Below, piece after piece: positions 5,125 to 47,209 of a stretch of 64,000 nucleotides of DNA. Below the pieces are notes generated by a model. The model was given only the letters and a program-made list of their open reading frames with translations, made no database searches and was not told where the DNA came from. Source of the DNA: Dokdonella sp. GTDB taxonomy: Bacteria > Pseudomonadota > Gammaproteobacteria > Xanthomonadales > Rhodanobacteraceae. Numbering within the stretch: the first letter of the stretch is position 1; each line of letters opens with the position of its first letter. The DNA lies in NCBI GenBank assembly GCA_019634795.1, contig JAHCAR010000010.1, forward strand, positions 60,585-124,584, read 5' to 3'. The position numbers and the translations under genes are program-made.

Positions 5125-6180
5125 TCAGTCGAAGCCGTCTTCGAAGATCCGATCGGACAATTCGTAGGCACCAAGGTCGACGGCGGACCCGAGCACGCGC
5201 TGACGCCCGTCGAGATCGAGCGCGGACAACTGCCATGCGTCGCCCGGTTGCGGCATCACGCCGAGATCGATCAGCGGCGAGTCGGCAGAGGGGCGGAAAC
5301 CCTGGACTGGAAAATCGAACAACGGATCGACCGAAACGTTCATCGAACTGCTCGCCGGCGGCGTGCCGCTGAGCACGAGGTAGTCATTGGCGACCAGGAT
5401 TGCGTTGGGCGTTTGCAGGGCAAGATCGATGGCCTGGTTGTCCCAGAAGATGTTGTTCGCGATCAGCACTTCTGCCGAACCACCGATGCGCAGACCGCCG
5501 GACCCGCCGCTGCAGTCGGCGCGCAGAAAGTTGTAGACGACCGTGTTGTTGATGACGAAGGTCGGCACGAGGCTGTTGGCCGTCAACGAAGCAGCCGCGT
5601 TGCTGCAGGCGCTGTTGGCGATGAACAGGTTGTTGCGAATCGTGAAGGCGCCTGCCCCGCCAGCCTCGAGCCCACCCCCGAAAGTGTCGGCCCGATTGCG
5701 ACGGAAGATGTTGTCGCGAATCGTCACATCGCCCGTAGAGGCCGACGTCGCCTGGACCCAGAGTCCGGCACCGCGCCCGTCCGGCTGCCCCTCGAGCATG
5801 CCGTCCTCGAAGGTCAGGCCTTCGACGATCAGATCGGTCTGCTCGCCGGGCCGGATCAGCATCGCCCGGGCCAGGTCGTTGCCCGATATGCGCGTGTCGA
5901 GTGCCGCGCCCGAGCGCGTTCCGCACGGGTTGAACAGAACCGGAATCCAACCGCCGCTGATGCGCAGGCTTCGTGGCGCCGTACTGCTGTCGAGATAGAC
6001 GAACCCATTCGGCGGCGCGACATGGAGCCCGATTACGACACGAATGTCGTTGGACTCCCCGTTGGTCACGCTCGTGTCGAGCGCCTGCTGCAGCTCGGCG
6101 CTCGTGCCGACGCAGAACTGGGCGGCTTGTGCTCTATCGGCACCGAGCGCGACCAGCAAACAGATCAGTGCCACTTTCAT
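5125..6180 (-). CDS. Secreted right-handed beta-helix protein with C-terminal GFD motif
   Basis: A 351-residue protein with a signal peptide (residues 1-19, ending DRAQA before AQFC) and repeated short Asn/Gly-rich coils such as VTIRDNIFRRNRA and FTIRNNLFIANSAC, typical of parallel beta-helix surface proteins. The segment SADSPLIDLG...VDLGAYE near the end is the choice-of-anchor Q pattern. The last residues are IFEDGFD at the stop codon, a motif shared with eight other exported proteins here. The start at 6180 gives the signal peptide; the open frame extends upstream without similarity. It is a tandem paralogue of the next gene (6311-7381), on the same strand with 130 bases between them. Ligand or substrate unknown. 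Confidence 0.85.
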   Translation of the reverse strand: MKVALICLLVALGADRAQAAQFCVGTSAELQQALDTSVTNGESNDIRVVIGLHVAPPNGFVYLDSSTAPRSLRISGGWIPVLFNPCGTRSGAALDTRISGNDLARAMLIRPGEQTDLIVEGLTFEDGMLEGQPDGRGAGLWVQATSASTGDVTIRDNIFRRNRADTFGGGLEAGGAGAFTIRNNLFIANSACSNAAASLTANSLVPTFVINNTVVYNFLRADCSGGSGGLRIGGSAEVLIANNIFWDNQAIDLALQTPNAILVANDYLVLSGTPPASSSMNVSVDPLFDFPVQGFRPSADSPLIDLGVMPQPGDAWQLSALDLDGRQRVLGSAVDLGAYELSDRIFEDGFD

Positions 6181-6310
6181 CGTCGCGCTCCGTCGGAAAT
6201 CCCGAATCGTTTCAATGCGCAGACGCGCGAATTCGCACAGCGTCACGCACGATCCGCGCGAGCGCGGCAACCGGACAGCAATGCGATGCAGCGAATCGGC
6301 CGGCGTTCGC

Positions 6311-7381
6311 TCATCCATCGAAACCGTCCTCGAAGATCAGGTCGGAGAGCTCGAAGGCGCCGAGATCGACGCTGCTGCCGATCACGCGCGGGTCGCCGTC
6401 GAGGTCGTAGCTCAGCAGTTGCCAGGGAAGACCCGAGGACGGGACGAGACCGAGATCGATCAGCGGCGAGTCGGCGCTGAGCCGGAACGGAAAGAACCCG
6501 TTGCCGGTGAACTGCGGAGACAGGTTGTAGTTCGGCCCGCCGGTGGCCGGGCCGAGCAGGTGCTGAAAGTCATTGCGGATCATCAGGCCACCGGAGTCGT
6601 TGACGAGGTCGAACTCCTCGTTGCCCCAGAGCACGTTATTGACGATCAGGACGGGCGAGATGCCGCCGATGCGCAGGCCACCTGCGGACGTCCCGATCTG
6701 GCAACCGCTGCGGATGAAATTGTAGGCGACGGTGTTGTTGATCAGGTAGCCAGTATCGTTGCCGCTATAGGTCAGCGATGCCGCTCCATGCCTGCATGCC
6801 GAATTGGTCAGGAACAGGTTGTTGTTGACGACGAGCCGACCACCGGCGGACGCGGCCAGGCCGCCGCCGTAGTCAAAGGCCGTGTTGTTGAGAAAGGCGT
6901 TGCCGCGAATCTGCACGTCGCCGGTCCAGCCGACGAATGTCTCGACTCTGAGGCCGGCACCCTGCCCCTGATCCAGGCCCAGTCCGAGCGTGTTGCCCTG
7001 CTGGAACGTCAGGCCTTCGACGATCACGTTCGTCGACGAGAACGGGCGAATGCGCATGACCCGGTCCTGATTGTTGCCGCTCAGCTTGGTCGAGAATGCC
7101 GAGAGATCCGATCGGACCCCGCACGGATTGCCGAAGAAGAACGACCAGCCGCCACTGATCGTCACGAGCGCTTCGGGATGGTCGAAGTTCTGGTAGACGA
7201 AGCCACCCGGCGGAGCCGGGTAGTTGCCGCTGCGCAGGCGGATCTCGTCGGACGCGTCGGTCACCGATGCACTGAGCAGGGCCTGGGCCAGCTCGGTTGA
7301 GTTGGAAACGCAGAACAACGCCGCGTGCGCTGACGGCACGAGGACGGACCAGAACAGGAACAACAGCGCGAGACGTTTCAT
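6311..7381 (-). CDS. Secreted right-handed beta-helix protein, tandem paralogue
   Basis: A 356-residue paralogue of the downstream gene. It has a signal peptide (about residues 1-20, MKRLALLFLFWSVLVPSAHA), beta-helix coils such as VQIRGNAFLNNTA and VVNNNLFLTNSAC in the same order as in its neighbour, the SADSPLIDLG...VDLGAFE pattern, and the C-terminal motif IFEDGFDG. The start at 7381 has GGAG eight bases upstream; a further ATG eight codons upstream (7405) is possible but would bury the signal peptide start. The two genes probably form one transcript from the divergent promoter region at 7382-7656. Function unknown; surface adhesion or polysaccharide binding are possibilities from the fold only. 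Confidence 0.85.
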   Translation of the reverse strand: MKRLALLFLFWSVLVPSAHAALFCVSNSTELAQALLSASVTDASDEIRLRSGNYPAPPGGFVYQNFDHPEALVTISGGWSFFFGNPCGVRSDLSAFSTKLSGNNQDRVMRIRPFSSTNVIVEGLTFQQGNTLGLGLDQGQGAGLRVETFVGWTGDVQIRGNAFLNNTAFDYGGGLAASAGGRLVVNNNLFLTNSACRHGAASLTYSGNDTGYLINNTVAYNFIRSGCQIGTSAGGLRIGGISPVLIVNNVLWGNEEFDLVNDSGGLMIRNDFQHLLGPATGGPNYNLSPQFTGNGFFPFRLSADSPLIDLGLVPSSGLPWQLLSYDLDGDPRVIGSSVDLGAFELSDLIFEDGFDG

Positions 7382-7656
7382 GCCGGACTCCAGGAGGCGT
7401 GACATGAACTCCAATGCGTGTCGGTGCCGAATCGCACACGCACTCGCGCGGAATTGGCCACGCCCTCTGTGAAGCGGTCGCGATTCGGCGTCGGCTCGAT
7501 GCCGGTATCGTGCCCTCCGTGTACCAAAAAGCGGCCCTCTCGCAACCTTTCGCCGCCGTCGTGGCACTGATGGAAGATGCGTTGTTCCGATTGACGCCGG
7601 CATTCGCTTGAACCGGTCGCAATCGATTTGCGACACCGACAAGGAGAACACTCGCC

Positions 7657-9027
7657 ATGAGTCGCCTGATTCGGACCGGATTCGGCCTCGTCCTTTTGGC
7701 TGCCGCTTCGGCCGCACCGTGCGCCAGTTTCGTCGTCGATACGACGCTCGACAGCGTCGATGCGGCACCCGGCGATGGCCTCTGTGCCGACGCGCTTGGC
7801 CGGTGCAGCCTGCGCGCCGCGATCATCGAGACGAACGCACTCGTGGGCGCCGACAGCGTGACGTTGCCGTCAGGAGACTACCTGCTCGCGATCATGGGCG
7901 AGCCTGAGGATGCCTCGGCGAGCGGCGATCTCGACGTCACCGACGACCTGAGCCTGATCGGCGCAGGGGCAGAGGCGAGCATCATCGACGGTGCTGCGAT
8001 CGACCGCGTGCTCGACCTCAGGCCCGCGACGGCGCGCACGATTTCCGTCGCGGCACTGACCCTGCGCAACGGGTTCATCGACAGCAACTTCTCGCTCATC
8101 GCGGGCGGTGCCGGCCTGCAGATCGGCAGCGGCGTGTCGCTCGACCTTGACCACGTCACGATCCGCGACAATCGCGTGGCCAATTCGGTGGCGGCAGCCG
8201 GCATCGCCAACGCCGGCTGCCTGCACGGTGCCTTCGTGCGGGTTCTCGACAACTTCGACATGGCGGCGCCCGGCTCGCGCCTTTCGGTCGCCGGTGGCAT
8301 CCTTGCCGCCGGCAAGACCAGTTGCCTGGTCCTCGAGGACTGCGAGCTGGCCGGCAACCGCGGCGATCATGCCGGCGCAATCTACGTGACCGAAGGCGCC
8401 TCGTTGACCCTGCGCCGCTGCCTGCTGACCGCCAACGAAGCCCGCTTTTCCGGTGCAATCGAAATCAATACCGGGGGCGAAGTGCGCCTCGAAAGCAGCA
8501 CGGTCAGCGACAATGCAGGCAACCCGGGTGCCATCCTTAACGATGGCGGCACCATCGTGACCCTGGTCAATTCCACGGTCACAGCCAATCACGGCAGCAT
8601 CGGCCTGCCCGTGGTCGGCGGCATCCAGGACGTGCATGGCGGCTTCGGCCTGACCTTTCTCGCCAATACGATCGTCTCGGGCAACGGTCCCGGTTTTCTT
8701 GCCGATGATTGCAGCAACGCGCGTTCGCTGAGCGGCAGCAACATCGTCGGCGTCGGCAGCGGCTGCCACTACAGCGCGCTGCCTGGCGACCAGATCGACG
8801 CCGATCCCGGCCTCGGTCCGCTCGCCGACAACGGCGGATTCACGCGCGCGCATCGGCCCGGCCCGAATGCGATCGACCATGGCGATCCAGACACTTGCGT
8901 GTCGCCCGATCAGCGCGGCATCGCCCGACCACTCGACGGCGACGGCGACGGCACGGCTTCCTGCGACATCGGCGCGATCGAGTTCGATCGGGACGCGCTC
9001 TTTTTGGATGGCTTCGACCCCTCCTGA
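7657..9027 (+). CDS. Secreted CSLREA/choice-of-anchor Q beta-helix protein
   Basis: A 456-residue exported protein. After a signal peptide (residues 1-24) comes a CSLREA-type N-terminal segment, here CSLRAAIIETNA, then Asn/Gly-rich beta-helix coils, then the choice-of-anchor Q block: LADNGGFTRAHRPGPNAIDHG, DQRGIARP and CDIGAIEFD. The protein ends LFLDGFDPS, the shared C-terminal motif followed by two extra residues. GGAG stands upstream of the ATG at 7657. It is divergent from the tandem beta-helix pair, with 275 bases of shared promoter region, so the three may be co-regulated. The architecture predicts an extracellular or surface-attached protein; no enzyme motif is visible. Confidence 0.88.
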   Translation: MSRLIRTGFGLVLLAAASAAPCASFVVDTTLDSVDAAPGDGLCADALGRCSLRAAIIETNALVGADSVTLPSGDYLLAIMGEPEDASASGDLDVTDDLSLIGAGAEASIIDGAAIDRVLDLRPATARTISVAALTLRNGFIDSNFSLIAGGAGLQIGSGVSLDLDHVTIRDNRVANSVAAAGIANAGCLHGAFVRVLDNFDMAAPGSRLSVAGGILAAGKTSCLVLEDCELAGNRGDHAGAIYVTEGASLTLRRCLLTANEARFSGAIEINTGGEVRLESSTVSDNAGNPGAILNDGGTIVTLVNSTVTANHGSIGLPVVGGIQDVHGGFGLTFLANTIVSGNGPGFLADDCSNARSLSGSNIVGVGSGCHYSALPGDQIDADPGLGPLADNGGFTRAHRPGPNAIDHGDPDTCVSPDQRGIARPLDGDGDGTASCDIGAIEFDRDALFLDGFDPS

Positions 9028-10969: not shown

Positions 10970-10982
10970 TTCCGACGCGCAC

Positions 10983-12149: not shown

Positions 12150-14996
12150 TCAGTCGAAGCCGTTGCGGAACAGGACGGCGCTCATCGAATACAGGGTCGT
12201 CGTGCCGCTGATCTCGTTGGCCACCGCGATCATCGAATCGCCCGTCGGGCTCTCGCTCGCGGGAATGAAGCGAATGCCTTCGGGACCGAGATCGCCGGCG
12301 GCCGCGGGGTCTGTGTCCAGGTCGATGACCACGCCGAAATCGCGATTGTTGGCGTAACCCATGTATTGGATCGCATACGGATTGGTGACATCGAACACGA
12401 CGATGCCGCCGATCCTTTCGAGGCCGACGAAGGCGTAGCTGTGGCCGTCGCTGGCGACACCGACGGCCAGCGCTTCGGGCTCGGGGCCCTTGTTGTCACT
12501 GCGCGACTCGAAGGACTGGTTTTCCTCGTTGTCCGAGTTGAAATTGTCCGGATAGCGCTCGGCCGTGACCAGTTCGATGAGGTCACCGCTGTCATAGACC
12601 AGGTTGCCGTACTGGTCCCAGACGGCCATCGAGCGACTGCCGTAGGACTGCAGGCGGTCGAAATCGCCATCGCCATCGAGGTCGCCGTCCAGGGTCGAGA
12701 TGCCGAGACGCCCCAGTGCCGCATTGTTCTTCAGCGCGGCCGCGTTCGGAAAGGCGGTCGGGTCGAGCACGACGCCCGCGCTGCCCACCCGCGCGTCTTC
12801 GCCTCGATCGTCGCCCTCGCCCGCGCTGGCATAGAAGCGTTCGCCGGCGGGGCCGGCAAATGCGGCCACCGTATCGGGCATGTGCATGCCGAACACGGGC
12901 CAGTTGCCAATGTTGATCGAAGGACCGTCACGATCGGACGGATCGAGGCCGCTGCCGAGATCGAAGTGAACCAGACCGAGTTGGATCGGCGTCGGCTCGG
13001 CATCGAGCGGCACCGTGCCGTTCGGCGGATTCGGCAGTGGCTGCGCGGCCAGGCCGAAATCGTTGTCGTTGAGCAGGGCCAGCTCGCCATTGCCGAGCAC
13101 GGCCAGGCCTTCGAGCTTGTCGCCCTGGAAATAGCCGATCGACGGCAGGTTGGCGACCTTGACCTTGGCCACCGCGCGGATACCTGCGAGTGCCAGCTGG
13201 TCCGGCGTGTGCTGCTCCAGGGTCAGGCCAGGCAGCAGTGCGGGCGCGGCCGGTCCGCGCAGATTGGTTGCGCCGACGAGGTTGAACTCGAACAGCATCT
13301 TCTTGCCGCTGCGTTCGACCGAATCGTCGCGCTCGACGATGTAGAAGCGGCCATTGCCGGCGTACGCGGCGTCGCCGATCTTGTCGGTGTTCTGTTCGCG
13401 GAATGGCGACTTGTCGATCAGGTAGACGTACTCGGCGACCACGCTGCCGTCGGCAGGGTCGATGCCGAGCATGCGAATGACCTTCGAGCCATTGCTGGCC
13501 GCCGTATCCGGATTGGCCAGCGGGGTCTGGATGAATGCGTAGAGGATGCCGGCATCGCTATCGAAGGCCATGCCTTCGAAGCCGCGATTCGGGCGCCGCA
13601 GGCTGTACTCGGCCGGCAGCGTCTCGCTGCCATAGGTGCCGACCGCTTGCCCACCGAGTGCAGCCGTGCCCTGTGGCACGTAGCGTGCGAGCAGCGCGCC
13701 GGCGGGATTGAACTGGTAGATCGCCGGGCGGTACTCGTCGACCATCCAGTAGTTGCCGCTGCCATCGATGACCAGGCCCTCGAGATCGGCCCCGAGCGGA
13801 TCGTAGTCGAGCACCGTGCCGAACAGATCGACGGGCTCTTCGTCGACGCCCGCGATATTGGGCAACCCGGTCATCGGCGTCGTGCCATCAGCACGCGTCA
13901 GGGCGAGCTGGTCGCCCAGCTCGATCTGGCCATTGCCCGGATCGAAGCTGAAACGGACCAGGCGCGGCTGGTAGGTCGGCAGCGCGAACGGGCGCTCCAG
14001 GGCGGGGTCGCCGTCGACATTGGTCGGCTCAGCGTTCGGCCCGCGATCCGGCACGGTGACGAAACGCAGCTTGCCGGTCGGTCCGTCGATGCCTTCGAAC
14101 CACAGCGCCGAGAAGCCGCCGAGGCGAATGTCCTGGCCGCCGGCCGTGCTTCCGAGCACCGGCAGGGTCGGGAAATCGAAGGTCTGCACGCGCGGCAAGC
14201 CGCGCTCGTGGTTCTTGAGGCCGGCCGCAACGATGTCCAGTACGGTGCGCGAGGCCAGATCGATCACGGCGAACGCGTTGGCTTCCTGCAGCGAGACGAA
14301 GGCCTGGGCGTTGTCGGCGGAGACGGCGACGTATTCGGGTTCCAGATCGCGACTTGCCGACCGCCCCGGGAAGATGCGCACGCCACGGGCGCGCAATTCA
14401 TTCTCGCGCCCGTCGAACGGCGTCAGCGGAATCTGGTAGGCGGTCGCCTTGTCGATCCCTTCGGCGAGGTCGATCAGGGTGATCGACCCGCGCGGATCGA
14501 TGAAGTCCGGAGTGCCAGGGTCTCCGACCGGCTCACCTTCGTTGGCCGACAGGACAGTGTGGCCGTCCGGGCTGAAGACGACATTGTCCGGCAGCACGCC
14601 CGCAGCAAAGATTCGCCGCAGCTGGCCGTCCGTGTCGAAGAAGGCGAGCACGCCCGGCGTGGTGGGCGATGCATTCGGAACGGCGACGACGACGAGGCCG
14701 TCGTGCACGGCGACGCTGGTGACATTGTCGCCGTAGGGCGTCACGTCGATGCTGAACAGAAGGGCAGGCGCATCGACGTCGGCGGCGTCGATGACATCGA
14801 CCTTGCGGGTCGCGCCGTTGGTGACGAAGAGGCGCTGGCTGGCGGAATCGTAGGCGACGATTTCGGATCCGGCAGTGGCGCCGGAGGAATAGGTGCCGCG
14901 CTTGATCAGGTCGAGCGACTGCGCGGCGACCGGCACGGATATCGCGCAGGCCAGCGCTGCAACCAGCCCTATGCCGCGGTGTCGAGGAAGGTTCAT
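12150..14996 (-). CDS. Large secreted choice-of-anchor I protein with inserted phytase-like esterase domain
   Basis: A 948-residue exported protein (signal peptide about residues 1-25, ending PVAAQS). The outer parts form a beta-propeller of the choice-of-anchor I type: start GSEIVAYDSASQRLFVTNGA, VFSPDGHTVLSANEGEP, and the end SDNKGPEPEALAVG, YAFVGLERIGGIVVFDV. Between them, from about residue 290 to 640, lies an esterase-like domain of the phytase family, with LEGLVIDGSGNYWMVDEYRP and NRGFEGMAFDSDAGILY. A nested insertion is the simplest reading. The C-terminus is LFRNGFD, the shared motif. The start at 14996 has GGAG six bases upstream. Phosphatase, phosphodiesterase or lactonase activity are all possible; none is proven by sequence. 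Confidence 0.85.
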   Translation of the reverse strand: MNLPRHRGIGLVAALACAISVPVAAQSLDLIKRGTYSSGATAGSEIVAYDSASQRLFVTNGATRKVDVIDAADVDAPALLFSIDVTPYGDNVTSVAVHDGLVVVAVPNASPTTPGVLAFFDTDGQLRRIFAAGVLPDNVVFSPDGHTVLSANEGEPVGDPGTPDFIDPRGSITLIDLAEGIDKATAYQIPLTPFDGRENELRARGVRIFPGRSASRDLEPEYVAVSADNAQAFVSLQEANAFAVIDLASRTVLDIVAAGLKNHERGLPRVQTFDFPTLPVLGSTAGGQDIRLGGFSALWFEGIDGPTGKLRFVTVPDRGPNAEPTNVDGDPALERPFALPTYQPRLVRFSFDPGNGQIELGDQLALTRADGTTPMTGLPNIAGVDEEPVDLFGTVLDYDPLGADLEGLVIDGSGNYWMVDEYRPAIYQFNPAGALLARYVPQGTAALGGQAVGTYGSETLPAEYSLRRPNRGFEGMAFDSDAGILYAFIQTPLANPDTAASNGSKVIRMLGIDPADGSVVAEYVYLIDKSPFREQNTDKIGDAAYAGNGRFYIVERDDSVERSGKKMLFEFNLVGATNLRGPAAPALLPGLTLEQHTPDQLALAGIRAVAKVKVANLPSIGYFQGDKLEGLAVLGNGELALLNDNDFGLAAQPLPNPPNGTVPLDAEPTPIQLGLVHFDLGSGLDPSDRDGPSINIGNWPVFGMHMPDTVAAFAGPAGERFYASAGEGDDRGEDARVGSAGVVLDPTAFPNAAALKNNAALGRLGISTLDGDLDGDGDFDRLQSYGSRSMAVWDQYGNLVYDSGDLIELVTAERYPDNFNSDNEENQSFESRSDNKGPEPEALAVGVASDGHSYAFVGLERIGGIVVFDVTNPYAIQYMGYANNRDFGVVIDLDTDPAAAGDLGPEGIRFIPASESPTGDSMIAVANEISGTTTLYSMSAVLFRNGFD

Positions 14997-25314: not shown

Positions 25315-28182
25315 ATGCCCACCCGTACTCTGCGCGAAATCGCGTGCCGCCCCTTGCTCCTGATCTTCCTCGCCGCGCTCTGCGTTGGCCGGGCCCAGGC
25401 CCAGACCAATGATGACTGGTCCAACGCGACGGTCATCACGACGCTGCCATTCAGCGATGCGCAGACGACCTCGGCAGCGACCACCGAAACGGGCGATCCG
25501 GAATCGATCTGCTTCATCGGTGCCGCCGGCAGCCAGGGCCGGGGGTCGGTCTGGTACCGCTATACCACCGGCGCCAGCGACGAATTCCTCAACATCTCGA
25601 CCGCCGGCAGTTCCTACGACACGGTCATCAATGTCTACCGCGGTTCGCCAGGCAGCTTCCAGCCGGTCCTCGGCGGCTGCAACGACGACGGCATTTCCGG
25701 CGTCTTCCAGGCGCGCCTGTCGGGCCTGCGCCTGCGCGCAGGCACAAGCTACTCGATCGAAATCGTCTCGCATGGCAGCTCGACCTTTGGCGGCAGCCTG
25801 CAGCTGGCGGTCGCCAGCGCGCCGCAGTACCTCGTCACGCGCAGCGACGACCCGAATCCGCCCCTGGCCGCCTGCGCGCCGGGCGACTGCACGCTGCGCG
25901 CGGCGATCAAGTCGGCCAACACCACTCCGGGAGCGGTCATCGTGCCCGCCGGCACCTACGCGATCTCGCTCGGCAGCAGTGGCGAGGACGCCAACAACGG
26001 CGGCGATTTCGATATCCGCGCCGGTATGGGCATCTACGGCGCGGGACCGGGCCAGACCATCGTCAACGCAGGCAATCTCGACCGCGCCTTCGACATCGAC
26101 CCGAGCGGAGGTACCGCTTCGGGCCGGGTCACCGCGATCATCGCGGATCTGGCCATCATCAACGGTGGCGGGCCCTCGTTCTTCGGCGACGGCGGCGCAA
26201 TCCGCGCCTACGATTCCGGTGGCGGCAACCTGTCCAACGACTTCGTCGCCCTGCAGCGCGTCAAGGTCAGCAACAGCCGCTCGCAGCTCAACGGAGGCGC
26301 CATGGCGCTGTCAGCGCGCGGCATGATCCACGACTGCGAATTCAGCGCCAACTACGCCAACAGCACCGGCGGCGCCCTGACCCTGGGGCCGTCCTTCGGC
26401 GGTGGCGACACGACCATCGACATCGTCGGCACGACGATCGCCAACAACCAGGCACCGAGCAGTTTCAGCGGCGGCGGCGGCATCAAGTCGACCGCGCGCC
26501 TGCGCCTGACCAACAGCACCGTGTACGCCAACACCTCGGGCTACCACGGCGGCGGGTTGTATCTGACCGGCACCGGCAACGCCGAGCTGCGCAGCAGCAC
26601 GATCGCGGCCAACGTCGCGCGCTCGGGCGGATCGGGCACGGCCAATGGCGGCGGCCTGCGCATCGACGGCGGCACGCTCAACCTGGCCAATACTCTGGTC
26701 GCCAACAATACGACCGGCAGCGGCGCCGGCGTCGCCGACGATTGCACGGCCGGCGGTGGCACTCTGGGCGCGAACTACAGTCTGGTCCGCGACGGCAGCG
26801 GCTGCGTCTTCGGCGGAACCGGCAACCTCAGCGGCAGCGATCCGCTGCTCGATGCTGGACTGGCCGACAACGGCGGCCCGACCCGGACCCTGGCCCTGCT
26901 CGCCGGCAGTCCGGCCATCGACGCGGGCAATCCGGCCGCTTGCCTGGACCGGCTCGGCCAGGCCCTCGCTTTCGACCAGCGCGGCCAGGGCTTCCCGCGC
27001 TCGAGCGGCGCCGCCTGCGACATCGGCGCCTACGAGCGCTCGGCGACGGACGTCGCCGCGCCGGACATGCCGGTGCTGGCCAGCGCATCCGACAGCGGCA
27101 GCTCCGATAGCGACGGCATCACCAACATCGCCCAGCCTCATCTGCTCGGCACCTGCACCGACGACGACACGATGACCCTGTCGGTCGACGCCACTCCGAT
27201 CTCGCCGACCGCCGTCTGCGCTGCTTCGGCCTTCGACATCGTCCCCGCCACGCCGCTCGCGGACGGCATGCGCGCAATCACGGTCACGGCGACGCGCAAC
27301 GGCTCGACCTCGGCGGCCTCGCCCGCGCTCGATATCGTCATCGACACGCTGGCTCCTGCAGTCGCGATCAACACGGGCCCGAGCGGGACCGTGGTCGATG
27401 CTGCGGCAAGCTTCACGTTCGGCATCGGCGACGGCCTTGCGGCGGAGTGCCGGCTCGACACTACGTCGTTCGCCGCCTGCAGCAGTCCGGCCAGCTACAG
27501 CGGCCTCGAAACTGGCCCGCACAGCTTCGATGTCCGCGCCTTCGATCTCGCCGGAAATATCGGCACCGACACGCGCAGCTGGACCGTCGCCGCGCCGAGT
27601 GCCCCGGCTACGCCGCTGCTCGATGCAGCCAGCGACAGCGGCCGCTTCGCCGACGACGGCGTCACCAATGCCGCGAGCCTGGTCTTCACCGGCAGCTGCG
27701 TCGACGGCGATCTGGTCAAGCTTTACGACGGATCGGACCCGCTGGCGGGCGCGTCGGCGAGTTGCAGCGGCGGTTACGCGATCAGCGTCTCCGGAATTGC
27801 CGAAGGCGCCCATGCAATTGCGGCGAGCGTGACTCGCGGCGGCCTCGAAAGCGCGCCGAGCAGCGCCCTGGCCGTGCTCATCGACCGCACCGCGCCAGCG
27901 GCGCCGACGATACTCGGCCCGACCGGCCCGAGCGCCCCGCGGGTCGATGTCAGCGGACAGGCCGAAGCCAACGCCGACGTCTCCGTGCGCGAGGGCTCCA
28001 CCACACTCTGCACGGCGATCTCGGACAGTAATGGCGACTGGGCCTGCCAGGTGCAGTTCCAGAGCGGCGGCAGCCATACCTTGACGGCCACGGCGACCGA
28101 TCTGGCCGGCAACGAGGGGCCGGCTTCGAATGGAGTGGCGATCGATGTCGACCTGATCTTCGCCAGCGGCTTCGACGACTGA
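25315..28182 (+). CDS. Large secreted CSLREA/beta-helix protein with Ig-like repeats
   Basis: A 955-residue exported protein. A signal peptide (about residues 1-28, ending GRAQAQT) is followed by a beta-sandwich of pre-peptidase C-like pattern (DDWSNATVITTLPFSDAQT and SSYDTVINVYRG), then a CSLREA-type segment CTLRAAIKSAN, beta-helix coils, a choice-of-anchor Q block (LADNGGPTRTLALLAGSPAIDAG, CDIGAYE), and about four bacterial Ig-like domains with the recurring pattern DSGxxxDDGxTN. It ends IFASGFDD, the shared C-terminal motif. The ATG at 25315 fits AGGA spacing better than the one at 25309. Divergent from the ToxR-like regulator, with 244 bases between. Confidence 0.86.
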   Translation: MPTRTLREIACRPLLLIFLAALCVGRAQAQTNDDWSNATVITTLPFSDAQTTSAATTETGDPESICFIGAAGSQGRGSVWYRYTTGASDEFLNISTAGSSYDTVINVYRGSPGSFQPVLGGCNDDGISGVFQARLSGLRLRAGTSYSIEIVSHGSSTFGGSLQLAVASAPQYLVTRSDDPNPPLAACAPGDCTLRAAIKSANTTPGAVIVPAGTYAISLGSSGEDANNGGDFDIRAGMGIYGAGPGQTIVNAGNLDRAFDIDPSGGTASGRVTAIIADLAIINGGGPSFFGDGGAIRAYDSGGGNLSNDFVALQRVKVSNSRSQLNGGAMALSARGMIHDCEFSANYANSTGGALTLGPSFGGGDTTIDIVGTTIANNQAPSSFSGGGGIKSTARLRLTNSTVYANTSGYHGGGLYLTGTGNAELRSSTIAANVARSGGSGTANGGGLRIDGGTLNLANTLVANNTTGSGAGVADDCTAGGGTLGANYSLVRDGSGCVFGGTGNLSGSDPLLDAGLADNGGPTRTLALLAGSPAIDAGNPAACLDRLGQALAFDQRGQGFPRSSGAACDIGAYERSATDVAAPDMPVLASASDSGSSDSDGITNIAQPHLLGTCTDDDTMTLSVDATPISPTAVCAASAFDIVPATPLADGMRAITVTATRNGSTSAASPALDIVIDTLAPAVAINTGPSGTVVDAAASFTFGIGDGLAAECRLDTTSFAACSSPASYSGLETGPHSFDVRAFDLAGNIGTDTRSWTVAAPSAPATPLLDAASDSGRFADDGVTNAASLVFTGSCVDGDLVKLYDGSDPLAGASASCSGGYAISVSGIAEGAHAIAASVTRGGLESAPSSALAVLIDRTAPAAPTILGPTGPSAPRVDVSGQAEANADVSVREGSTTLCTAISDSNGDWACQVQFQSGGSHTLTATATDLAGNEGPASNGVAIDVDLIFASGFDD

Positions 28183-30568: not shown

Positions 30569-32026
30569 TCAGTCGAAACCGTTCTCGAACAGGCGGTCGC
30601 CACCACGAAAGGTGCCGACGATCAGCGAACGCAAGGGGTCCGCCGGAGGCGGTGGATCGACACCCATGATTAGGGCGACCACGCCGCCACTCAGGGTGCC
30701 GACACCGTCCCAGGCGCCGTTCTGCTCGACGATCGCACCGGGGAGCGCGCCGAGAAAGAAGGTATCCGCGTCGATCGGATTGCCCGCGGGATCCTCGTAG
30801 GCGACCGCGGCGGTCGTGTCGAAAGTCAGGCCGAGCACCGACAACAGCGGCCGGTTGACACTCTCGACCGGACCTACGGCCCGCGAGTCGGCGGCATTCG
30901 GACCGCCGCGCAGGCGCGCACGCGTGGCCCAGCGGTTGCCTTGCCGATCCATGTATCCGCGCACCTCGACCTGGCGGGCCTGGGTGATGCCGTTGGCGTA
31001 CACCAGATCTTCGTCACGCAACTGCGCGGCACGACGCACCGTATTGGCGAGGACATGCACCGTGCCATTGCCACCCGGCACGACATCGGCGGGAACGACC
31101 GGACCCTCGATGCGAATGGTCGGTGCGTCGAACTGGACCCCCTGGGCGGTGAAGGTCAGGCCGGGCCCGAACACGCCGTCGATCTCGGCAGCCGCCCCCG
31201 GGGCCAGGTCATCCGCACTGCCGAAGCGGAATTCCGTGTTGGCGTCATAGCTCACCGCATACGGACCGAACTGGAACGACGTGTTCGAGAGGATCGTTCC
31301 GACGATGCCGGTCAGTGCGCCGAGGGCGCCCGGCGTACCCAGCGGAACCGGCACGACGCAGGTCAGGCGTGTGACGGTATCGAGCACGCTGCCGGCCGTG
31401 AAGTTGGCGATCGCGTCGGCGCGGATTTCGACGAACTCACCGACATCGACCGTCGCGCCGCAATCGATCGGACTGACCCCGGCAAGACTGACGTGCTGCG
31501 GCCCGAGCGTGATTTCGTTGCCATTGACGCCGGTGACATAGCCCGACAGCAGCCAGCGCGGCGTCGGCGTTGGCAGGTACTCGATGAACGAAGCCAGCAG
31601 GCTCGAATTGGTGTCGACGTACCCGCTCACATCGAGGTGATCACCGAGCGCGATGTTGGCGATAGTGCCTCCAGGCAGGCCGGTGGCACCCGTGTCCGCT
31701 GTCACAGTGACTTCCTGACCGAGCACGCGCAGTGGAACGGTCGAGGTCACCGACCCGCGGACGGCATAGGAAAAGACCACGGTCGCCGCGGGCACCACGC
31801 CATGTGGCCCCGGTTGGGCCATCAATGCTTGCGGGTACCGGACCTCGGTGCGCAGGCCGGGCTTTTGCGGAACGGCGCTGCCGGGGGGCAGGACTTCGTC
31901 GTCGACGACGAGCGTCGTGCCGTTGTCGACCCAGACCGCATGTCCCTGCACATCGATGAGCTCGTCGGCAGCAACCGGCGCGACCGCCGACAGCAAGGAG
32001 ATGAAGAGAATCGGGCGAATGTTCAT
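30569..32026 (-). CDS. Secreted DUF5666-like beta-barrel repeat protein
   Basis: A 485-residue exported protein (signal peptide residues 1-20, ending VAADEL). It is built of repeated OB-like beta domains similar to DUF5666: each has the pattern of a short strand, a G-x-x-V-E-V/I turn and an ending such as VQFDAPTIRIEGPV. Key segments are LGDHLDVSGYVDTNSSLLAS and GEFVEIRADAIANFTAGSVLDTVTRLTC, both with close counterparts in the protein at 42257-43786, so the two are paralogues. The C-terminus is LFENGFD. The ATG at 32026 is preferred; a TTG four codons upstream is also open. Role unknown. Confidence 0.8.
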   Translation of the reverse strand: MNIRPILFISLLSAVAPVAADELIDVQGHAVWVDNGTTLVVDDEVLPPGSAVPQKPGLRTEVRYPQALMAQPGPHGVVPAATVVFSYAVRGSVTSTVPLRVLGQEVTVTADTGATGLPGGTIANIALGDHLDVSGYVDTNSSLLASFIEYLPTPTPRWLLSGYVTGVNGNEITLGPQHVSLAGVSPIDCGATVDVGEFVEIRADAIANFTAGSVLDTVTRLTCVVPVPLGTPGALGALTGIVGTILSNTSFQFGPYAVSYDANTEFRFGSADDLAPGAAAEIDGVFGPGLTFTAQGVQFDAPTIRIEGPVVPADVVPGGNGTVHVLANTVRRAAQLRDEDLVYANGITQARQVEVRGYMDRQGNRWATRARLRGGPNAADSRAVGPVESVNRPLLSVLGLTFDTTAAVAYEDPAGNPIDADTFFLGALPGAIVEQNGAWDGVGTLSGGVVALIMGVDPPPPADPLRSLIVGTFRGGDRLFENGFD

Positions 32027-40710: not shown

Positions 40711-41994
40711 TCAGTCGGCGGCAGCGCAGGCCGCGGCACCGACATCATCGTAGCCGTCGATGAATATCGCGTCGGCGGAATCGCGCCAGTAGGCCGCGCC
40801 GACATGACTCGGCGCGCCGCTGTAGCCGGGCACTCCGACCAGCCAGCGCTGCGTCTGGGCGCCAACCGACCAGCCGACGAGTCCGCCCGGCGTCGTCTGC
40901 GCAAGCCCTGGTCCGGCCGCAGCCAGCCAACTCGCACCATTGAAAACAAAGCGCGTCACGCCGCCGCAACCGGCCAACGCAAAGGGCGCGCCGACCAGCA
41001 ACTGATCGCCATCGAGCGAAACCGACCAACCGAAGCGGTCGCCGGCCAGTCCACCCGGCGCGGCCAGATGCGCCTGCTGCGTCCACAGCTGGGCCGAGCG
41101 CGTGAACACGAACGCGCCGCCAGCGCCGGCGTCGGCCAGCGGCGCACCGACCAGGGCACGGTCGCCGGAAAGGCTGACCGCGCTGCCGAACAGGTCGCCG
41201 TTGGCAGCGGTCAATGGCTGCAGGCGCGCCTGTTGCGTCCAGTCCGCTGCGATGTTCTCGAAGACGTAGACCGCGCCGCGACCGTAGCTTCCGGCCACTG
41301 CCGGTGCCCATTGCGGGGCGCCACCCAACAGCGTGCTTCCGCTCAGGGCGACACCGCTGCCGAGCGCGTCACCCGGACTTGCATCATCGGCCTGCAGGCG
41401 ATCGGTTTGCGCCCATGTGCCATTGCTGCGCTCGAACACATAAAGCGCGCCGGCCCCGTTGTCCGCGGCCGGCGCGCCGACAACGAGGCGGTCGACCTGG
41501 GCGGCAACGGCGGCGCCAAAACGCTCGTCTGGCAGGGTCGGAGTGGCGCCGAGCTTCTGCTGCAGCAACCAGCCGGATCCGTCGTGAACGTAGACGTAGA
41601 CGGCCCCTGCGCCCTGGCCGGGGGCACCGATGGCCAGCGTATCGGCCGACAGCGACAGCGCGGCGCCGAACAGGTCGCCGGGAGCGAGATCGATCGGGAT
41701 CAGGGCCACCGGTGCCGTGCAGCTCTGACCGACGCAATGGTAAGCATGCACGACACCGCTGCGCGAAAAATCGCCCGGAGCGCCGGCGGCCAGGCGCGGT
41801 CCGTCCAGCGCTGTCGCATAGGCCAGCTCGGCGCCGGGCTCGGTATCGGCCAGCAACAGGCTCTGCGCGTCGCTGTCGCCGCTGGCCAGCCCGCAAACGA
41901 GCACGGCGACTTCCAGCGCTTGCTTGCAGGCGGACGAAAAGCGGCGCGGGGGCGCGGCGCCAAGTCGGGTCTCGATGGAATGACGCGGTTTCAT
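40711..41994 (-). CDS. Secreted FG-GAP repeat protein
   Basis: A 427-residue exported protein made of about six integrin-like FG-GAP beta-propeller blades, with the repeat pattern GDLFGAALSLSADTLAIGAPG followed by a strand such as GAVYVYVHDG. The signal region is unusual: about 30 polar and basic residues before the hydrophobic stretch ALEVAVLVCGLAS. The shared C-terminal motif appears as IFIDGYDD but is followed by a 14-residue Ala-rich extension, the only case here with such a tail. No ribosome binding site is clear at 41994, so the start could be elsewhere. Convergent with the response regulator gene, 51 bases apart. Confidence 0.82.
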   Translation of the reverse strand: MKPRHSIETRLGAAPPRRFSSACKQALEVAVLVCGLASGDSDAQSLLLADTEPGAELAYATALDGPRLAAGAPGDFSRSGVVHAYHCVGQSCTAPVALIPIDLAPGDLFGAALSLSADTLAIGAPGQGAGAVYVYVHDGSGWLLQQKLGATPTLPDERFGAAVAAQVDRLVVGAPAADNGAGALYVFERSNGTWAQTDRLQADDASPGDALGSGVALSGSTLLGGAPQWAPAVAGSYGRGAVYVFENIAADWTQQARLQPLTAANGDLFGSAVSLSGDRALVGAPLADAGAGGAFVFTRSAQLWTQQAHLAAPGGLAGDRFGWSVSLDGDQLLVGAPFALAGCGGVTRFVFNGASWLAAAGPGLAQTTPGGLVGWSVGAQTQRWLVGVPGYSGAPSHVGAAYWRDSADAIFIDGYDDVGAAACAAAD

Positions 41995-42256: not shown

Positions 42257-43786
42257 ATGTATCCCTATCCGTACCACCGCGTTCGGTGCTCGTCCGCGAA
42301 GATCACCGGGCTTCTGGTCCTGATCGCGGCGCTCGCCACCGCACCCGCCCTGGTCGCGGCTGCGGCCGAGAGCGTGACCATCAACGGTCAGCGGACATTC
42401 GCCATCAGTCCGCAGACCACCTACAGCCTCGATGGCGTCGCGATTCCGGCCGAGCAAGCGGCGCGCATCGGCGCCGGCTACAGCGCCCAGGTCGTGGCCG
42501 GCAATGTCGCCCCGGATGTCAGCAGTGGCGAGGCGACCCACATCGACCTGCGCACCCTCGCTCGCGGTCCGGTGACCTCGGTCGATCCATTGAGCGTGCT
42601 GCGCCAGCCGCTCGTGATCACCGCCGAGACCGTGCTCGTCGACATCCCCGGGGGCGACCTCGCCAACATCCAAATCGGCGACCTGCTCGACGTCAGCGGA
42701 TTTCTCGACAGCAACGGCGCCATGGCGGCGTCCCGGGTCGCCCTGCCCGGTGATCCGACCACCGACTGGAAACTGTTCGGCCAGGTCTCCGCACTCAATG
42801 GCGTGCAGTTTTCGATCGGCGCGCAGGCGATCGACTCGACCGGCGTGACCCCGTTCGGATGCGTGCCGGCGCTTCAGAATGGGCAGTTCGTCGAGCTCGA
42901 ATCGCTGCCGAATGCCGGCTACGCAAGCGGATCGGTGCTCGGGCAGCTGACCCGTCTGGAGTGTGAGGATCCCGACTTCGACGATCCGCCACAGGGCACG
43001 ATCGCGGCGTCGCTCGAGGGCATCATTTCGGCATTGCCCGATCCGCTGCCGACACCGCCGAGCTTCAGCATGCTCGACGTCGAAGTCGTCACGAGCGCCC
43101 AGACCGAATATCGCGCCGGCACGATCGACGATCTCGATGTCGGCGTGCGGGTCGAGGTCGAAGGCGTCTTCGACGCGACCAGCGGAATACTCACCGCCCA
43201 AGAGGTGCGCTTCGTCCAGGGCCAGGTCCGCTTCGAGGCGCCTGTCGACCCGGCCGATATCACAACCGGAGAATCGATCCTGATCGTGGGCAGCGGCGCT
43301 GCATTCACTGCGCAGACTCGTGATGAGGACGGCATTGTTTCGGGCCTTTCGGCACCGACCCAGGTCGAGCTGCGCGGACTCATGGACCGTGACGGTCAGA
43401 TCTTCGCGACGCGCGTGCGCGAGCGTGGCCAACCCGATCTTGCCGATACGCGGCTGCGTGGACCGGTCGCCGAAATCAACGAACCGCAACTGACGATCCT
43501 TGGCATTGCGGTCGATACCAGCACGGCGCAATTCCGCGATCATGCCCAGAATGTCATTTCTTCTGCGGAGTTCTTCACCCGGGTCTTTCCCGGCACCCTG
43601 GTTTCCGCCGAGGACGCAGTCTACGACCCGATCAGCGCGACCCTGGTCGCCGGTCTCGTCGAACTCGAGGAGAACACGGTAGCGGCACCGCCCAGGGCGG
43701 CTGCGGGTTCGCCCGGACAAGGCATCTCACGCGGCACCGTGAGCCGATTCGGCGCCGATGCGATCTTCACCAATGGTTTCGAATAG
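42257..43786 (+). CDS. Secreted DUF5666-like protein, paralogue of the 30.6 kb gene
   Basis: A 509-residue exported protein with a signal peptide (about residues 1-36, ending LVAAAAE) and repeated DUF5666-like OB/beta domains. Segments such as IQIGDLLDVSGFLDSNGAMAAS, NGQFVELESLPNAGYASGSV and DLDVGVRVEVEGVFDATSG closely follow the order in the protein at 30569-32026, with which it is paralogous. The C-terminus is IFTNGFE, a motif variant with Glu. The ATG at 42257 has AGGAG eight bases upstream. Its neighbour at 44929 carries the same kind of domain in short form. Function unknown. Confidence 0.83.
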   Translation: MYPYPYHRVRCSSAKITGLLVLIAALATAPALVAAAAESVTINGQRTFAISPQTTYSLDGVAIPAEQAARIGAGYSAQVVAGNVAPDVSSGEATHIDLRTLARGPVTSVDPLSVLRQPLVITAETVLVDIPGGDLANIQIGDLLDVSGFLDSNGAMAASRVALPGDPTTDWKLFGQVSALNGVQFSIGAQAIDSTGVTPFGCVPALQNGQFVELESLPNAGYASGSVLGQLTRLECEDPDFDDPPQGTIAASLEGIISALPDPLPTPPSFSMLDVEVVTSAQTEYRAGTIDDLDVGVRVEVEGVFDATSGILTAQEVRFVQGQVRFEAPVDPADITTGESILIVGSGAAFTAQTRDEDGIVSGLSAPTQVELRGLMDRDGQIFATRVRERGQPDLADTRLRGPVAEINEPQLTILGIAVDTSTAQFRDHAQNVISSAEFFTRVFPGTLVSAEDAVYDPISATLVAGLVELEENTVAAPPRAAAGSPGQGISRGTVSRFGADAIFTNGFE

Positions 43787-44866: not shown

Positions 44867-44895
44867 AAAAAACGGGAGGCCCGATCGGGCCTCCC
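44867..44895 (-). terminator. Rho-independent terminator of the periplasmic OB-fold gene
   Basis: GGGAGGCCCGATCGGGCCTCCC at 44874-44895 is a perfect palindrome, followed on the minus strand by a run of six T (44867-44872, read as A6 on plus). It lies 33 bases after the stop at 44929 and is the clearest terminator in the window. Confidence 0.9.
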
Positions 44896-44928
44896 GCAAC
44901 GGCATGGTCCTGGCAGCGATGCGCGAGA

Positions 44929-45564
44929 TCAGCTGCCGACCATCGGCGACAGCGTGATGATCGTGCTGGCCATCAGCTCGCGACCGCTGAAGAAGTCGTG
45001 GTCGAGCGTTCCGGCGACACTCACGCGCTGGCCCTTCTCGATCTTCTGGAAGCCCTTGTCGTCCATCGGGTTGTAGGCCATTTCCGAGGTATCGACGGTG
45101 ATCTTCGTCGGACCGGCGTCAACCGTGAACTCGCGTCCGTCGACGCTGGTCACCTTGCCGGCCACGACGGTCTTGGAGACCGCTACCGGAGTCGTGATCG
45201 AGACCAGCATCGGATCCTCGTCGTCGATCGCGCTGGCATAGAAGTTGGTGCCAAGGCTCTCGACGTAGACGCTGGATGCCTCGATGGTGGTTTTCTCGAA
45301 CAGGTCGTTGTCGATGGCGCCAGAGACCGAGACCTTGTCGCCCTTGACCAGCTTGTAGCCGCTCTTGCTGCCGCCGGGGCTGTCCATTTCGACGTTGATC
45401 ATGCCGTCGCCGTAGTCGAGCAGGAATCGATCGGGACTGACGCTTTCGACCGTGCCGCTCAGGGTGATCCAGCTGTTGTTCGGCTTGCTGTACGGATCCT
45501 TGGCAATGGCCGGCATTGCGCCCATCGACGCGATGGCGAGTGAAAGTAGCGTTTTCGTATACAT
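44929..45564 (-). CDS. Exported DUF5666/BOF-like protein
   Basis: A 211-residue periplasmic protein with a signal peptide (residues 1-21, ending AIAKD). It contains two OB-fold-like units: SGTVESVSPDRFLLDYGDGMI with VKGDKVSVSGAIDNDLF, and AGKVTSVDGREFTVDAG with EKGQRVSVAGTLDHDFF. The pattern resembles YgiW/YdeI stress-tolerance proteins and DUF5666. A strong AGGAGG lies seven bases before the ATG at 45564, and a Rho-independent terminator follows the gene, so it is monocistronic and probably well expressed. Unlike its secreted neighbours it lacks the GFD-type C-terminus. Confidence 0.85.
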   Translation of the reverse strand: MYTKTLLSLAIASMGAMPAIAKDPYSKPNNSWITLSGTVESVSPDRFLLDYGDGMINVEMDSPGGSKSGYKLVKGDKVSVSGAIDNDLFEKTTIEASSVYVESLGTNFYASAIDDEDPMLVSITTPVAVSKTVVAGKVTSVDGREFTVDAGPTKITVDTSEMAYNPMDDKGFQKIEKGQRVSVAGTLDHDFFSGRELMASTIITLSPMVGS

Positions 45565-45653
45565 GATTGCCTCCTTTTTTGCAGTGAATCAATCACGTCC
45601 TGTGATGCCAGCTCACGCTGGTGCGGTTACCGTAGCGAGCGGCGGCTTAGCCC

Positions 45654-45665
45654 AGGATTAATCCT
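45654..45665. promoter_or_regulatory. 12-bp palindrome upstream of the OB-fold gene
   Basis: AGGATTAATCCT is a perfect palindrome about 90 bases upstream of the ATG at 45564, in a locally AT-rich stretch that also contains TATACA on the minus strand. It may be an operator for a dimeric repressor or activator. Weak evidence. Confidence 0.3.
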
Positions 45666-45877
45666 GCATTGTATAGTTTTTATGCATTCATCGAAGGGCG
45701 CGCCTAAATACAGCGCGCCGGACACCGGCGACGCGCCGTTGCAAAGTGGAATGTCGCCCGGGCCGTCGACCTGGCACCGGCTTGCCGCGACCGGCGGCGC
45801 CGCCGCTTCGCGGGCACACGGCTCGGCCCGATCCATGCTCGCGCGTCGACGATCGTCGCCGGGCCAAGGATTCCCGT

Positions 45878-47209
45878 CTATTCGAATGGCGTGCAGAAGA
45901 TCAGATCGTCCAGGTAAACGTAGGCGCGACCGATGCGGCTGCCTGGCGCGAACGAGGGATGGTCCGAAAGCGGATCACCAATGACGGCAAAGCCCTGGTC
46001 GTAGTCGAGCGAGGCGCCGAAGTTGCTTCGATTGTTGTTGCTGCCCGAAAAAAGCTTTTGCGTCCTGCCCCAGTTGCCGGCACCGCCGACATCGCGCTGG
46101 AACACGTAGGCGGCCCCGGTCGCACCGGTGATGCCGGCGACGGCGGAGGCGCCGACCAGCAGTTCGTTTTCATGCAGATGGATGGCCTTGCCGAATTCGC
46201 CACCGGAAATGCTGTCTCCGCCGGCGTCGACCTCGACTACCGGGCCCCAGGCGCCACTGCCACCCTGGTTGCGTTCATGCAGGTGTACGCGCCCGGCGCC
46301 ACCGAGGCTGGCGATGGCGAGGCGATCCTTCCACAGGCTGATCGCACTGCCGAACGCCGTGATCCCGGCGGGCGCGTCGATGCGCGTGACCAGTCCCCAC
46401 TGCCCCGGACCACCCTGGTTGCGGTCGTAGACGTAGACCCGGCCCTCGAGGCCGCTGCTGACCGGATCGACGTCGTACAGGGGGTCGCTGACGATCACGG
46501 TATCGCCGTACACGGCAACGTAGTCACCAAAGTGGTCGCGGTCGACATCGGTCGGCGGACTGACCAGCGATTTCACCTCGGTGAAGTTGGCACCGACGCC
46601 GCTGCGCTCGTAGATGACGACCTTGCCCGTGCCGGAGTCGGCATCGCGATCGCCAACCAGCAGCCGGTTGCGATCGAGCGCCACCGAAACGCCGAAGCTG
46701 ACGTATCCGGCGCTCTCCTGGGCGATGATCGACTGGCGTGGTCCCCAGGCGTCGGTTCCGCCAAGATTGCGTTCGAATACATGGACCGCTCCGGCGTCGT
46801 TGCTCGGCACATCCCCGGCCTGGATCGCGCCGACGACGAGCGTATCGCCATCCATCGCCAGCGCACCGCCGAAATTGTCACCGACCTCGGAAAACCCCGG
46901 CTCGTCGATGCGCTTGAGATACTGCCACTGGTTCGGCGCCGCGCCGCGCCTATACAGGTAGACCTCGCCCGCCTCGGTGGTCGAATGAGCCTGCTGCGAC
47001 AATCCTGCCGCCATGAACTGGCCGTTGGTGGCGATCGCTTCGGCGAAGCGGTCCTCGCTCTGGGCGACGACCGAGTCGGCATGGCTGAAATCGGCCAAGT
47101 CGGCAAAGGTGTCCGGCGGACAGGCTGCCAGCGCCGGAAATGCCGCGCCGGCAAGAATTGCCGAGAACAGACGCAATCGCGTGCTGGCCAAGCGGGGTTC
47201 GATCGACAT
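45878..47209 (-). CDS. Secreted FG-GAP repeat protein
   Basis: A 443-residue exported protein with a signal peptide (about residues 1-29, ending FPALAAC) and repeated FG-GAP blades: DNFGGALAMDGDTLVVGAI, VSFGVSVALDRNRLLVGDRD and GEFGKAIHLHENELLVGAS. The fold is an integrin-like beta-propeller. The C-terminus is LIFCTPFE, a degenerate form of the shared motif in which the Gly is replaced by Pro. AGGAG lies eight bases before the ATG at 47209. Divergent from the second kinase/sigma pair, with 128 bases between. Confidence 0.84.
   Translation of the reverse strand: MSIEPRLASTRLRLFSAILAGAAFPALAACPPDTFADLADFSHADSVVAQSEDRFAEAIATNGQFMAAGLSQQAHSTTEAGEVYLYRRGAAPNQWQYLKRIDEPGFSEVGDNFGGALAMDGDTLVVGAIQAGDVPSNDAGAVHVFERNLGGTDAWGPRQSIIAQESAGYVSFGVSVALDRNRLLVGDRDADSGTGKVVIYERSGVGANFTEVKSLVSPPTDVDRDHFGDYVAVYGDTVIVSDPLYDVDPVSSGLEGRVYVYDRNQGGPGQWGLVTRIDAPAGITAFGSAISLWKDRLAIASLGGAGRVHLHERNQGGSGAWGPVVEVDAGGDSISGGEFGKAIHLHENELLVGASAVAGITGATGAAYVFQRDVGGAGNWGRTQKLFSGSNNNRSNFGASLDYDQGFAVIGDPLSDHPSFAPGSRIGRAYVYLDDLIFCTPFE

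Follow-up and report, generated by a model that had tools for sequence, protein, structure and literature searches.

A 64,000-nucleotide stretch of a Dokdonella sp. genome (GenBank assembly GCA_019634795.1, contig JAHCAR010000010.1, positions 60,585 to 124,584 of the forward strand; this whole stretch is hereafter the window) encodes several exported proteins that end in variants of one short sequence, such as IFEDGFD. This tag, D-x-[IL]-F-x-[DNS]-G-F-[DE], usually forms the extreme C-terminus of exported proteins with a variety of folds and is absent above background from the genomes sampled in the phylum outside the order of Dokdonella. Within this order of soil and water bacteria, it co-occurs with one of two type II secretion systems (T2SSs), here called T2SS-A, whose GspC protein bears a PDZ domain, and not with the other, T2SS-B. 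On balance, the tail is probably a short linear C-terminal export tag for T2SS-A. Its recognition by this system is inferred from these patterns, while the proposal that the GspC PDZ domain is the reader is more speculative.

The tag is far above chance. In the genome of the window (3.87 Mb, 85% complete), the DNA form of [ILMF]F..GF[DE]-stop has 28 exact matches, versus none for a reversed-pattern control; 27 of them end open frames of at least 171 codons and one a frame of 77 codons, frame lengths being limited to 508 codons by locus size. In the gene calls of the window and of 40 stretches picked around tagged genes (203,338 residues), the core motif lies at most 20 residues from the C-terminus 73 times and internally four times, and the reversed motif occurs once, internally. 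The composition of the tail was derived from 72 tagged proteins of ten genomes, collected with an expression that allowed up to 14 residues after the tag, so that longer ends were not visible to it; positions fixed by the search pattern are no evidence of conservation. Of these proteins, 45 have D two residues before the motif, 68 have I or L as its first residue, and 70 have D, N or S just before G (D, N, S, G or A overall). The last motif residue is E in 43 and D in 29, and little is conserved beyond two residues upstream. Most proteins (56/72) stop exactly at the tag, and the other 16 run on for 1–11 residues. The strict pattern used in the surveys admits neither V as the first residue nor an extension. 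The observation is real, and stronger than first claimed.

Two surveys defined where the tag occurs, one of 160 genomes of the order and one of 299 genomes drawn from the phylum, 292 of which lie outside the order. Within the order, 83 genomes have at least one strict match and 63 have 4–47, with 0–3 for the reversed control, and the distribution is patchy. The 292 genomes outside it have 0–4 matches (controls 0–5), i.e., background only, and the 30 loci read there are mostly short spurious frames. A stricter pattern, D-x-I-F-x-[DN]-G-F-E-stop, matches at least 117 stretches in named records; among the matches listed are isolates of Dokdonella, Tahibacter, Pseudofulvimonas, and Marinicella, and metagenome-assembled genomes (MAGs) of Rudaea, Wenzhouxiangella, and Lysobacterales. 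In the NCBI taxonomy, Marinicella and Dokdonella are members of Lysobacterales, and Wenzhouxiangella is a member of Chromatiales.

The two T2SSs differ in gene organization. The T2SS-A locus holds gspC, gspD, gspE, and often gspF together; a DEAD-box helicase gene and an ftsEX-like pair (names assigned by eye) flank it in several genomes. A second locus holds gspG-K and, in some genomes and by gene order, gspL-N. In the genome of the window, where the T2SS-A genes were assigned by Pfam, gspL-N were not seen beside gspG-K. T2SS-B forms a single operon, gspE-F-G-H-I-J-K-L-M-N-D, in an order that we take to be Xps-like, and is present in tagged and untagged genomes alike. GspC of T2SS-A (GspC-A) carries T2SSC and PDZ domains (Pfam). 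The one protein scanned from the GspC position of T2SS-B gave no Pfam match, and a weak T2SSC match in the B operon of genome G031 stays under the cut-off at 23.6 bits. In a secretin tree, long branches with support 100/100 separate 17 B sequences from a side made up of 22 A sequences and the second G061 secretin; clade A without this one long, Xanthomonadaceae-type row has support 90/84. Of note, a conserved exported protein of about 500 residues without a Pfam match is encoded one or two genes downstream of gspD-B (e.g., L270:6372-7949); its cluster has 10 members, from tagged and untagged genomes.

A GspD model run on 62 genomes found two GspD over cut-off in 26 of the 27 genomes with at least four strict tags, the exception being G097. 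Exactly one was found in 26 of the 30 untagged genomes outside family f10, the others being G061 with two, G074 with three, and G001 and G019 with none; the five f10 genomes in this survey have two secretins each. The possibility that any second T2SS would be the partner of the tag was rejected, as G061 and G074 have no strict tags. The extra secretins of these two genomes lie outside clade A in the tree, in which two of the three G074 sequences were placed.

The initial annotation had raised the question of whether the tag co-occurs with a particular secretion gene, and across the 160 genomes of the order it does, with the PDZ-GspC system. When PF11356 (T2SSC) is searched over these same genomes and tagged is defined as at least four strict matches, 59 genomes have both, 30 GspC only, 4 the tag only, and 67 neither (agreement 126/160). 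Adding a F-x-D-R-F form of the tag (at least 10 matches) changes these numbers to 75/14/4/67 (142/160), and adding seven more f10 genomes to 82/7/4/67 (149/160), both criteria having been set after f10 looked exceptional and its tails were read. T2SSC is thus found in 82 of the 86 genomes counted as tagged. Two of the other four, G118 and G048, have the A-type GspG of the second locus, which is present in 13 of 23 genomes, including these two. From genome incompleteness alone, about 4.4 of the 86 tagged genomes would be expected to miss any one locus, and four are observed without GspC. Counts by family are as follows. In f1, T2SSC is present in exactly the 5 tagged genomes and in none of the other 21; in f2, the only strong match among 26 genomes is in the one that is tagged, four weak or short matches being in untagged genomes; in f9, T2SSC is found in 24 of 25 tagged genomes, and the single untagged one, G019, has no GspD, T2SSC or GspG match. 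The corresponding numbers in f8 are 2 with both, 3 with GspC only, 1 with the tag only, and 20 with neither. T2SS-A is therefore close to necessary for the tag, but not sufficient.

Five gene families were profiled against the tag. Exosortase was rejected as a partner, an exosortase-fold gene being present in 14 of 22 tagged genomes and 3 of 13 untagged ones, which leaves a loose association. A short exosortase-fold protein is encoded outside the window at G000:C2:3735-4169, with similar proteins in 17 of 35 genomes. Rhombosortase was rejected as well, since it exceeds the cut-off in 3 of 35 genomes (G053, G013, and G097), one of them tagged; G097 is both a rhombosortase carrier and the main exception to the T2SS-A rule. 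Among the gene neighbours of tagged genes in the 40 stretches and the window, no recurrent partner was found; wholly untagged gene families recur next to tagged ones in at most 3 of 11 genomes.

Family f10 at first appeared to be a counter-example, with T2SSC in 26 of 26 genomes and only 0–3 strict tags in each. Because the presence of T2SS-A predicted tags there, they were searched for at the ends of choice-of-anchor Q proteins. Among 30 such loci, 22 match the domain-end pattern, with 10 ends visible and 12 running beyond view. Each of the seven visible f10 ends has the tag in some form (IFNDRFEQP, VFQDRFEQP, IFADRLESQP, IFQDRFQDFGE, IFSDGFEA, IFGSRFD, and IFSDRFDSAR), whereas the three visible ends from other families carry none; two of these come from G053 and G101, which lack T2SS-A, and one from G156, which has it. 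A fixed pattern for this R-form gives 10–88 matches in sixteen f10 genomes (controls 0–1, and 7 in one) and 0–5 in the remaining genomes except G150, which has 10; 30 R-form loci outside f10 were left unread. In stretches of G037 picked around choice-of-anchor Q genes, seven of nine distinct R-form matches are C-terminal, one of the seven in a 21-codon frame. The seven other f10 genomes have 14–42 matches to a [GR] pattern without stop (controls 0–4), such extended forms having been counted in 16 of the 160 genomes. Reading 13 loci in those genomes revealed seven real tails, many of them starting with V and bearing a short extension, so the f10 match counts include non-tail matches. Six of the seven genomes have at least one real tail each; for the seventh, G114, the tail is the IFSDGFEA listed above. 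With R and extended forms taken into account, f10 no longer stands as a counter-example.

A comparison of GspC PDZ sequences, made without G082 and G156, gives a hint that the reader may have changed together with the tag. At one column, the 13 GspC proteins from R-tag genomes have E or D, while 7 from G-tag f10 genomes have R, P, S, V or A, and E is found in 2 of 26 G-tag proteins overall; the same filter let through 18 columns, and the R-tag genomes are closely related.

The initial annotation had also asked whether the tag is restricted to proteins with Sec signals. The counts point that way: a crude, home-made predictor, which over-calls and takes membrane proteins too, puts 65 of 68 tagged proteins over its signal-peptide threshold, versus 183 of 397 untagged neighbours. 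These counts exclude genes cut by stretch ends, starts other than M, proteins under 80 residues, and proteins with a degenerate tail only; one set of tagged frames also excludes those with a signal score below 3. The diversity of the cargo was assessed on 79 proteins, taken from 85 tagged frames under a residue limit and selected through a DNA pattern that matches the tail. When aligned, they share nothing except this tail, which was the selection criterion, and the start. Their Pfam matches (E up to 1e-5) fall into 64 families, no single one of which is matched by more than four proteins, including subtilases, metallopeptidases, endonuclease I, glucose/sorbosone dehydrogenase, di-haem peroxidase, and FG-GAP proteins. 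In NCBIfam, choice_anch_Q matches 16 of the 79, and others resemble rhombosortase- or myxosortase-dependent families (3 match a rhombosortase-dependent M36 family and 4 rhombotarget A). With such cargo, the tag takes the place that known sorting signals occupy. A model for the tail, if it existed, would be the commonest match; none appeared among the best 25 families, ranked by member number, of the 64 from Pfam and 65 from NCBIfam. This agrees with the initial annotation, which knew no named family for the tail: no match shown covers it, and none is common to most of the 79 proteins. Two structure models, from shallow alignments of 4 and 5 sequences, place the tag in neither case. Their predicted local distance difference test (pLDDT) falls below 50 from residue 278 on in a beta-helix protein and from 406 on in a propeller, which is weak evidence that the tail may be exposed.

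The tagged genes of the window are the following:

5125..6180, minus strand: exported right-handed beta-helix protein with a choice-of-anchor Q end just over the cut-off; tail IFEDGFD (tag codons 5128-5148)
6311..7405, minus strand: exported paralogue of the 5125 protein (50% identical); tail IFEDGFDG (tag 6317-6337)
7657..9027, plus strand: exported beta-helix protein with a choice-of-anchor Q domain; tail LFLDGFDPS (tag 8998-9018)
12150..14996, minus strand: exported choice-of-anchor I/phytase-like protein, start picked by eye; tail LFRNGFD (tag 12153-12173)
25315..28182, plus strand: exported protein with choice-of-anchor Q and bacterial immunoglobulin (Ig) domains; tail IFASGFDD (tag 28156-28176)
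30569..32026, minus strand: exported DUF5666 protein; tail LFENGFD (tag 30572-30592)
40711..41994, minus strand: exported FG-GAP_2 propeller, model confidence low at the tag; IFIDGYD followed by 11 further residues, full tail IFIDGYDDVGAAACAAAD (tag 40747-40767)
42257..43786, plus strand: exported DUF5666 protein; tail IFTNGFE (tag 43763-43783)
45878..47209, minus strand: exported FG-GAP_2 protein with a degenerate tag, IFCTPFE (tag 45881-45901)

All nine tails reported in the initial annotation are in frame at these genes; eight fit [IL]F-x-x-G-[FY]-[DE], and the ninth is degenerate. A six-frame scan of the window allowing G or P before [FY] returned the same nine and no others. The proteins had been described as nine unrelated exported proteins. 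They are exported and of several folds, but their unrelatedness was overstated, since they are of only about five kinds: choice-of-anchor Q beta-helices, choice-of-anchor I/phytase-like, Ig-containing, DUF5666, and FG-GAP_2. Besides the paralogues at 5125 and 6311, the proteins at 40711 and 45878 are both FG-GAP_2, those at 30569 and 42257 both DUF5666, and choice_anch_Q is common to those at 7657 and 25315. None of the nine tails is followed by a membrane helix or a basic patch, each ending 0–11 residues past the motif, which bears out their distinction from PEP-CTERM, GlyGly-CTERM, and LPXTG signals; no NCBIfam or Pfam match among those listed for the window proteins covers the tail. The signal peptide of the degenerate-tag protein ends in a lipobox-like LAAC, and this protein may be a lipoprotein, less dependent on the tag. 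Gene pairs adjoin tagged genes at 2323-5120 and 47338-50444, each presumably encoding a small sigma factor and a large serine/threonine-kinase-like protein; a similar sigma-like gene lies near tags in G041.

How T2SSs choose their cargo is a long-standing question, and these systems move folded proteins out of the periplasm. A tagged protein would reach the periplasm through Sec (or Tat) and fold there; its tag, seemingly outside the fold, would then be recognized by T2SS-A, and the protein would exit through the GspD-A secretin. The initial annotation had seen in the tail a recognition tag for secretion or cleavage, and the exported cargo and the co-occurrence with a PDZ-GspC system support this, favouring secretion. 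PDZ domains often bind C-terminal peptides, and a C-terminal, aromatic, acidic tail would by analogy suit such a domain, making the PDZ of GspC the candidate reader. Trailing residues in about a fifth of the tags disfavour strict end recognition, so that the N-domains of GspD or the pseudopilus tip are possible readers too. In its fullest form, the proposal is that [IL]F-x-[DNS]-[GR]-F-[DE] would be the first short linear, sequence-readable T2SS signal, movable between folds and read in the periplasm by T2SS-A, probably via the GspC PDZ, tag and reader having shifted together from G to R in one genus; we give this whole about an even chance.

A number of observations weigh against a T2SS-A export tag. 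G097 is 98% complete and has 15 tag matches (control 0) without T2SSC, a second GspD or an A-type GspG, and both G097 loci that were read hold real tails; G059 (77% complete) is likewise tagged without GspC-A and A-type GspG. Conversely, G082 and G127 have T2SS-A with two matches each and no tag in the parts read, G156 has GspC-A with two matches in addition to its untagged choice-of-anchor Q protein, and three f10 genomes and G006 have GspC with too few tag matches to count. The co-loss in f1, f2, f8, and f9 may reflect few independent events, the numbers being raw counts uncorrected for relatedness; Fisher values computed on them likewise take no account of it and should not be read as probabilities. 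Binding of a free C-terminus by a PDZ domain fits poorly with the 1–11 trailing residues of 16 of the 72 tags, and two choice-of-anchor Q proteins of G037 (L456:2667 and L456:5000) continue for 87 residues after an R-form tag, which can thus be internal. Twelve of the at least 117 loci are titled as MAGs of other groups (eight Alcanivoracaceae, and one each of Oceanospirillales, Chromatiales, Pseudomonadales, and Planctomycetales). For seven of them, DNA similarity to the rest of the loci was checked: L201 and L161, the latter from a Lysobacterales MAG, share 92% identity over 1,850 bases, and the other six have no DNA match to the remaining loci. These MAG titles may be wrong, but the tag may also occur outside the order. 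Lastly, published work locates the PDZ-dependent information of Vibrio VesB in an Ig fold, where it survives loss of the tail (PMC12369372), and has Pel3 relying on several loops (PMC7949064).

The main rival is a tag that acts after export, T2SS-A reading its cargo otherwise and the tail serving for surface anchoring, cleavage or modification, as with GlyGly-CTERM, with co-loss through loss of the cargo. Choice-of-anchor domains (choice_anch_Q in 16 of 79) and rhombosortase- or myxosortase-dependent-like families among the cargo would fit this explanation, as would the persistence of tags in G097 without T2SS-A and the view in PMC7949064 that type II signals are structural. However, the window tails lack the membrane helix and basic patch, rhombosortase exceeds the cut-off in only 3 of 35 genomes, a single one of them tagged, an exosortase-fold gene is missing from 8 of 22 tagged genomes, and wholly untagged families recur next to tagged genes in at most 3 of 11 genomes; we regard this rival as possible but rather unlikely. 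A separate receptor or peptidase, lost in the same lineages as T2SS-A, could also read the tag. It would account for the insufficiency of T2SS-A in G082, G127, and G156 and for the tags of G097, and only five families were profiled; yet the genes found to fit the distribution already make up a machine that exports folded proteins from the periplasm. We consider a separate reader distinctly improbable. That the tail would merely reflect shared ancestry or a mobile C-terminal domain with no trafficking role is suggested by the paralogues of the window and the frequency of choice_anch_Q, but is very hard to reconcile with 64 Pfam families over 79 proteins, none in more than four, and with an alignment sharing only tail and start. 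The chance that the tail is an already known sorting signal (PEP-CTERM, GlyGly-CTERM, MYXO-CTERM or the tail of the type IX secretion system, T9SS) is slighter still: its position and kinds of cargo are similar, but the window tails lack a membrane segment and a basic end, none of the model matches listed extends over the tail, and neither rhombosortase nor exosortase tracks the tag.

No description of the tag was found in open-licence PubMed Central (PMC) papers searched for tail strings, CTERM names, choice-of-anchor, the genera, and type II C-terminal signals. If the tail is an export tag for T2SS-A, tens of proteins per genome, in named isolates, would carry a sequence-readable tag whose recognition is directly testable by deletion and grafting; this would allow secretomes to be predicted and might provide a portable export tag. 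Should the tail serve in anchoring or processing instead, it would still be a sorting signal without a description found in those papers.

The tag shares features with several known systems. Like the C-terminal domain of T9SS cargo, it would sit at the C-terminus and direct proteins across the outer membrane once Sec has exported them; the T9SS signal is, however, a folded domain of about 70–80 residues, while the tag has only about 9, with little conservation upstream. Cargo of type I secretion has a C-terminal signal and is not known to carry an N-terminal signal peptide, whereas tagged proteins do have predicted signal peptides (65/68). The PEP-CTERM signature is followed by a membrane helix and basic residues, while the tag has no membrane segment, and 8 of 22 tagged genomes have no exosortase-fold gene, which 3 of 13 untagged ones do have. 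Both the tag and PEP-CTERM (PMC1569441) are nonetheless short C-terminal signatures on many exported proteins, patchy between species. The GlyGly-CTERM/rhombosortase system (PMC3237569, PMC6219818) likewise concerns a C-terminal signal on many unrelated Sec-exported proteins, including type II substrates; this signal is described as a glycine/serine-rich motif, a hydrophobic stretch, and a basic end. The window tails have no glycine/serine motif, membrane helix or basic end, and rhombosortase is rare. MYXO-CTERM is described by an invariant cysteine (PMC11980579). In the 72 tails, the first variable position is never a cysteine, and the second is D, N, S, G or A only.

Close parallels are the Eps system of Vibrio and the Out system of Dickeya, which have a PDZ-bearing GspC as T2SS-A does (PMC12369372, PMC7949064, PMC11981180). 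The PDZ domain of EpsC is reported there to be required for VesB secretion (PMC12369372), and XpsC of Xanthomonas is described with a single helix in place of the PDZ. According to these papers, no conserved signal for type II transport has been identified yet (PMC11981180), and known type II substrates have no common linear sequence (PMC7949064). The cargo associated with T2SS-A differs from that of Eps and Out precisely in having a common linear tail.

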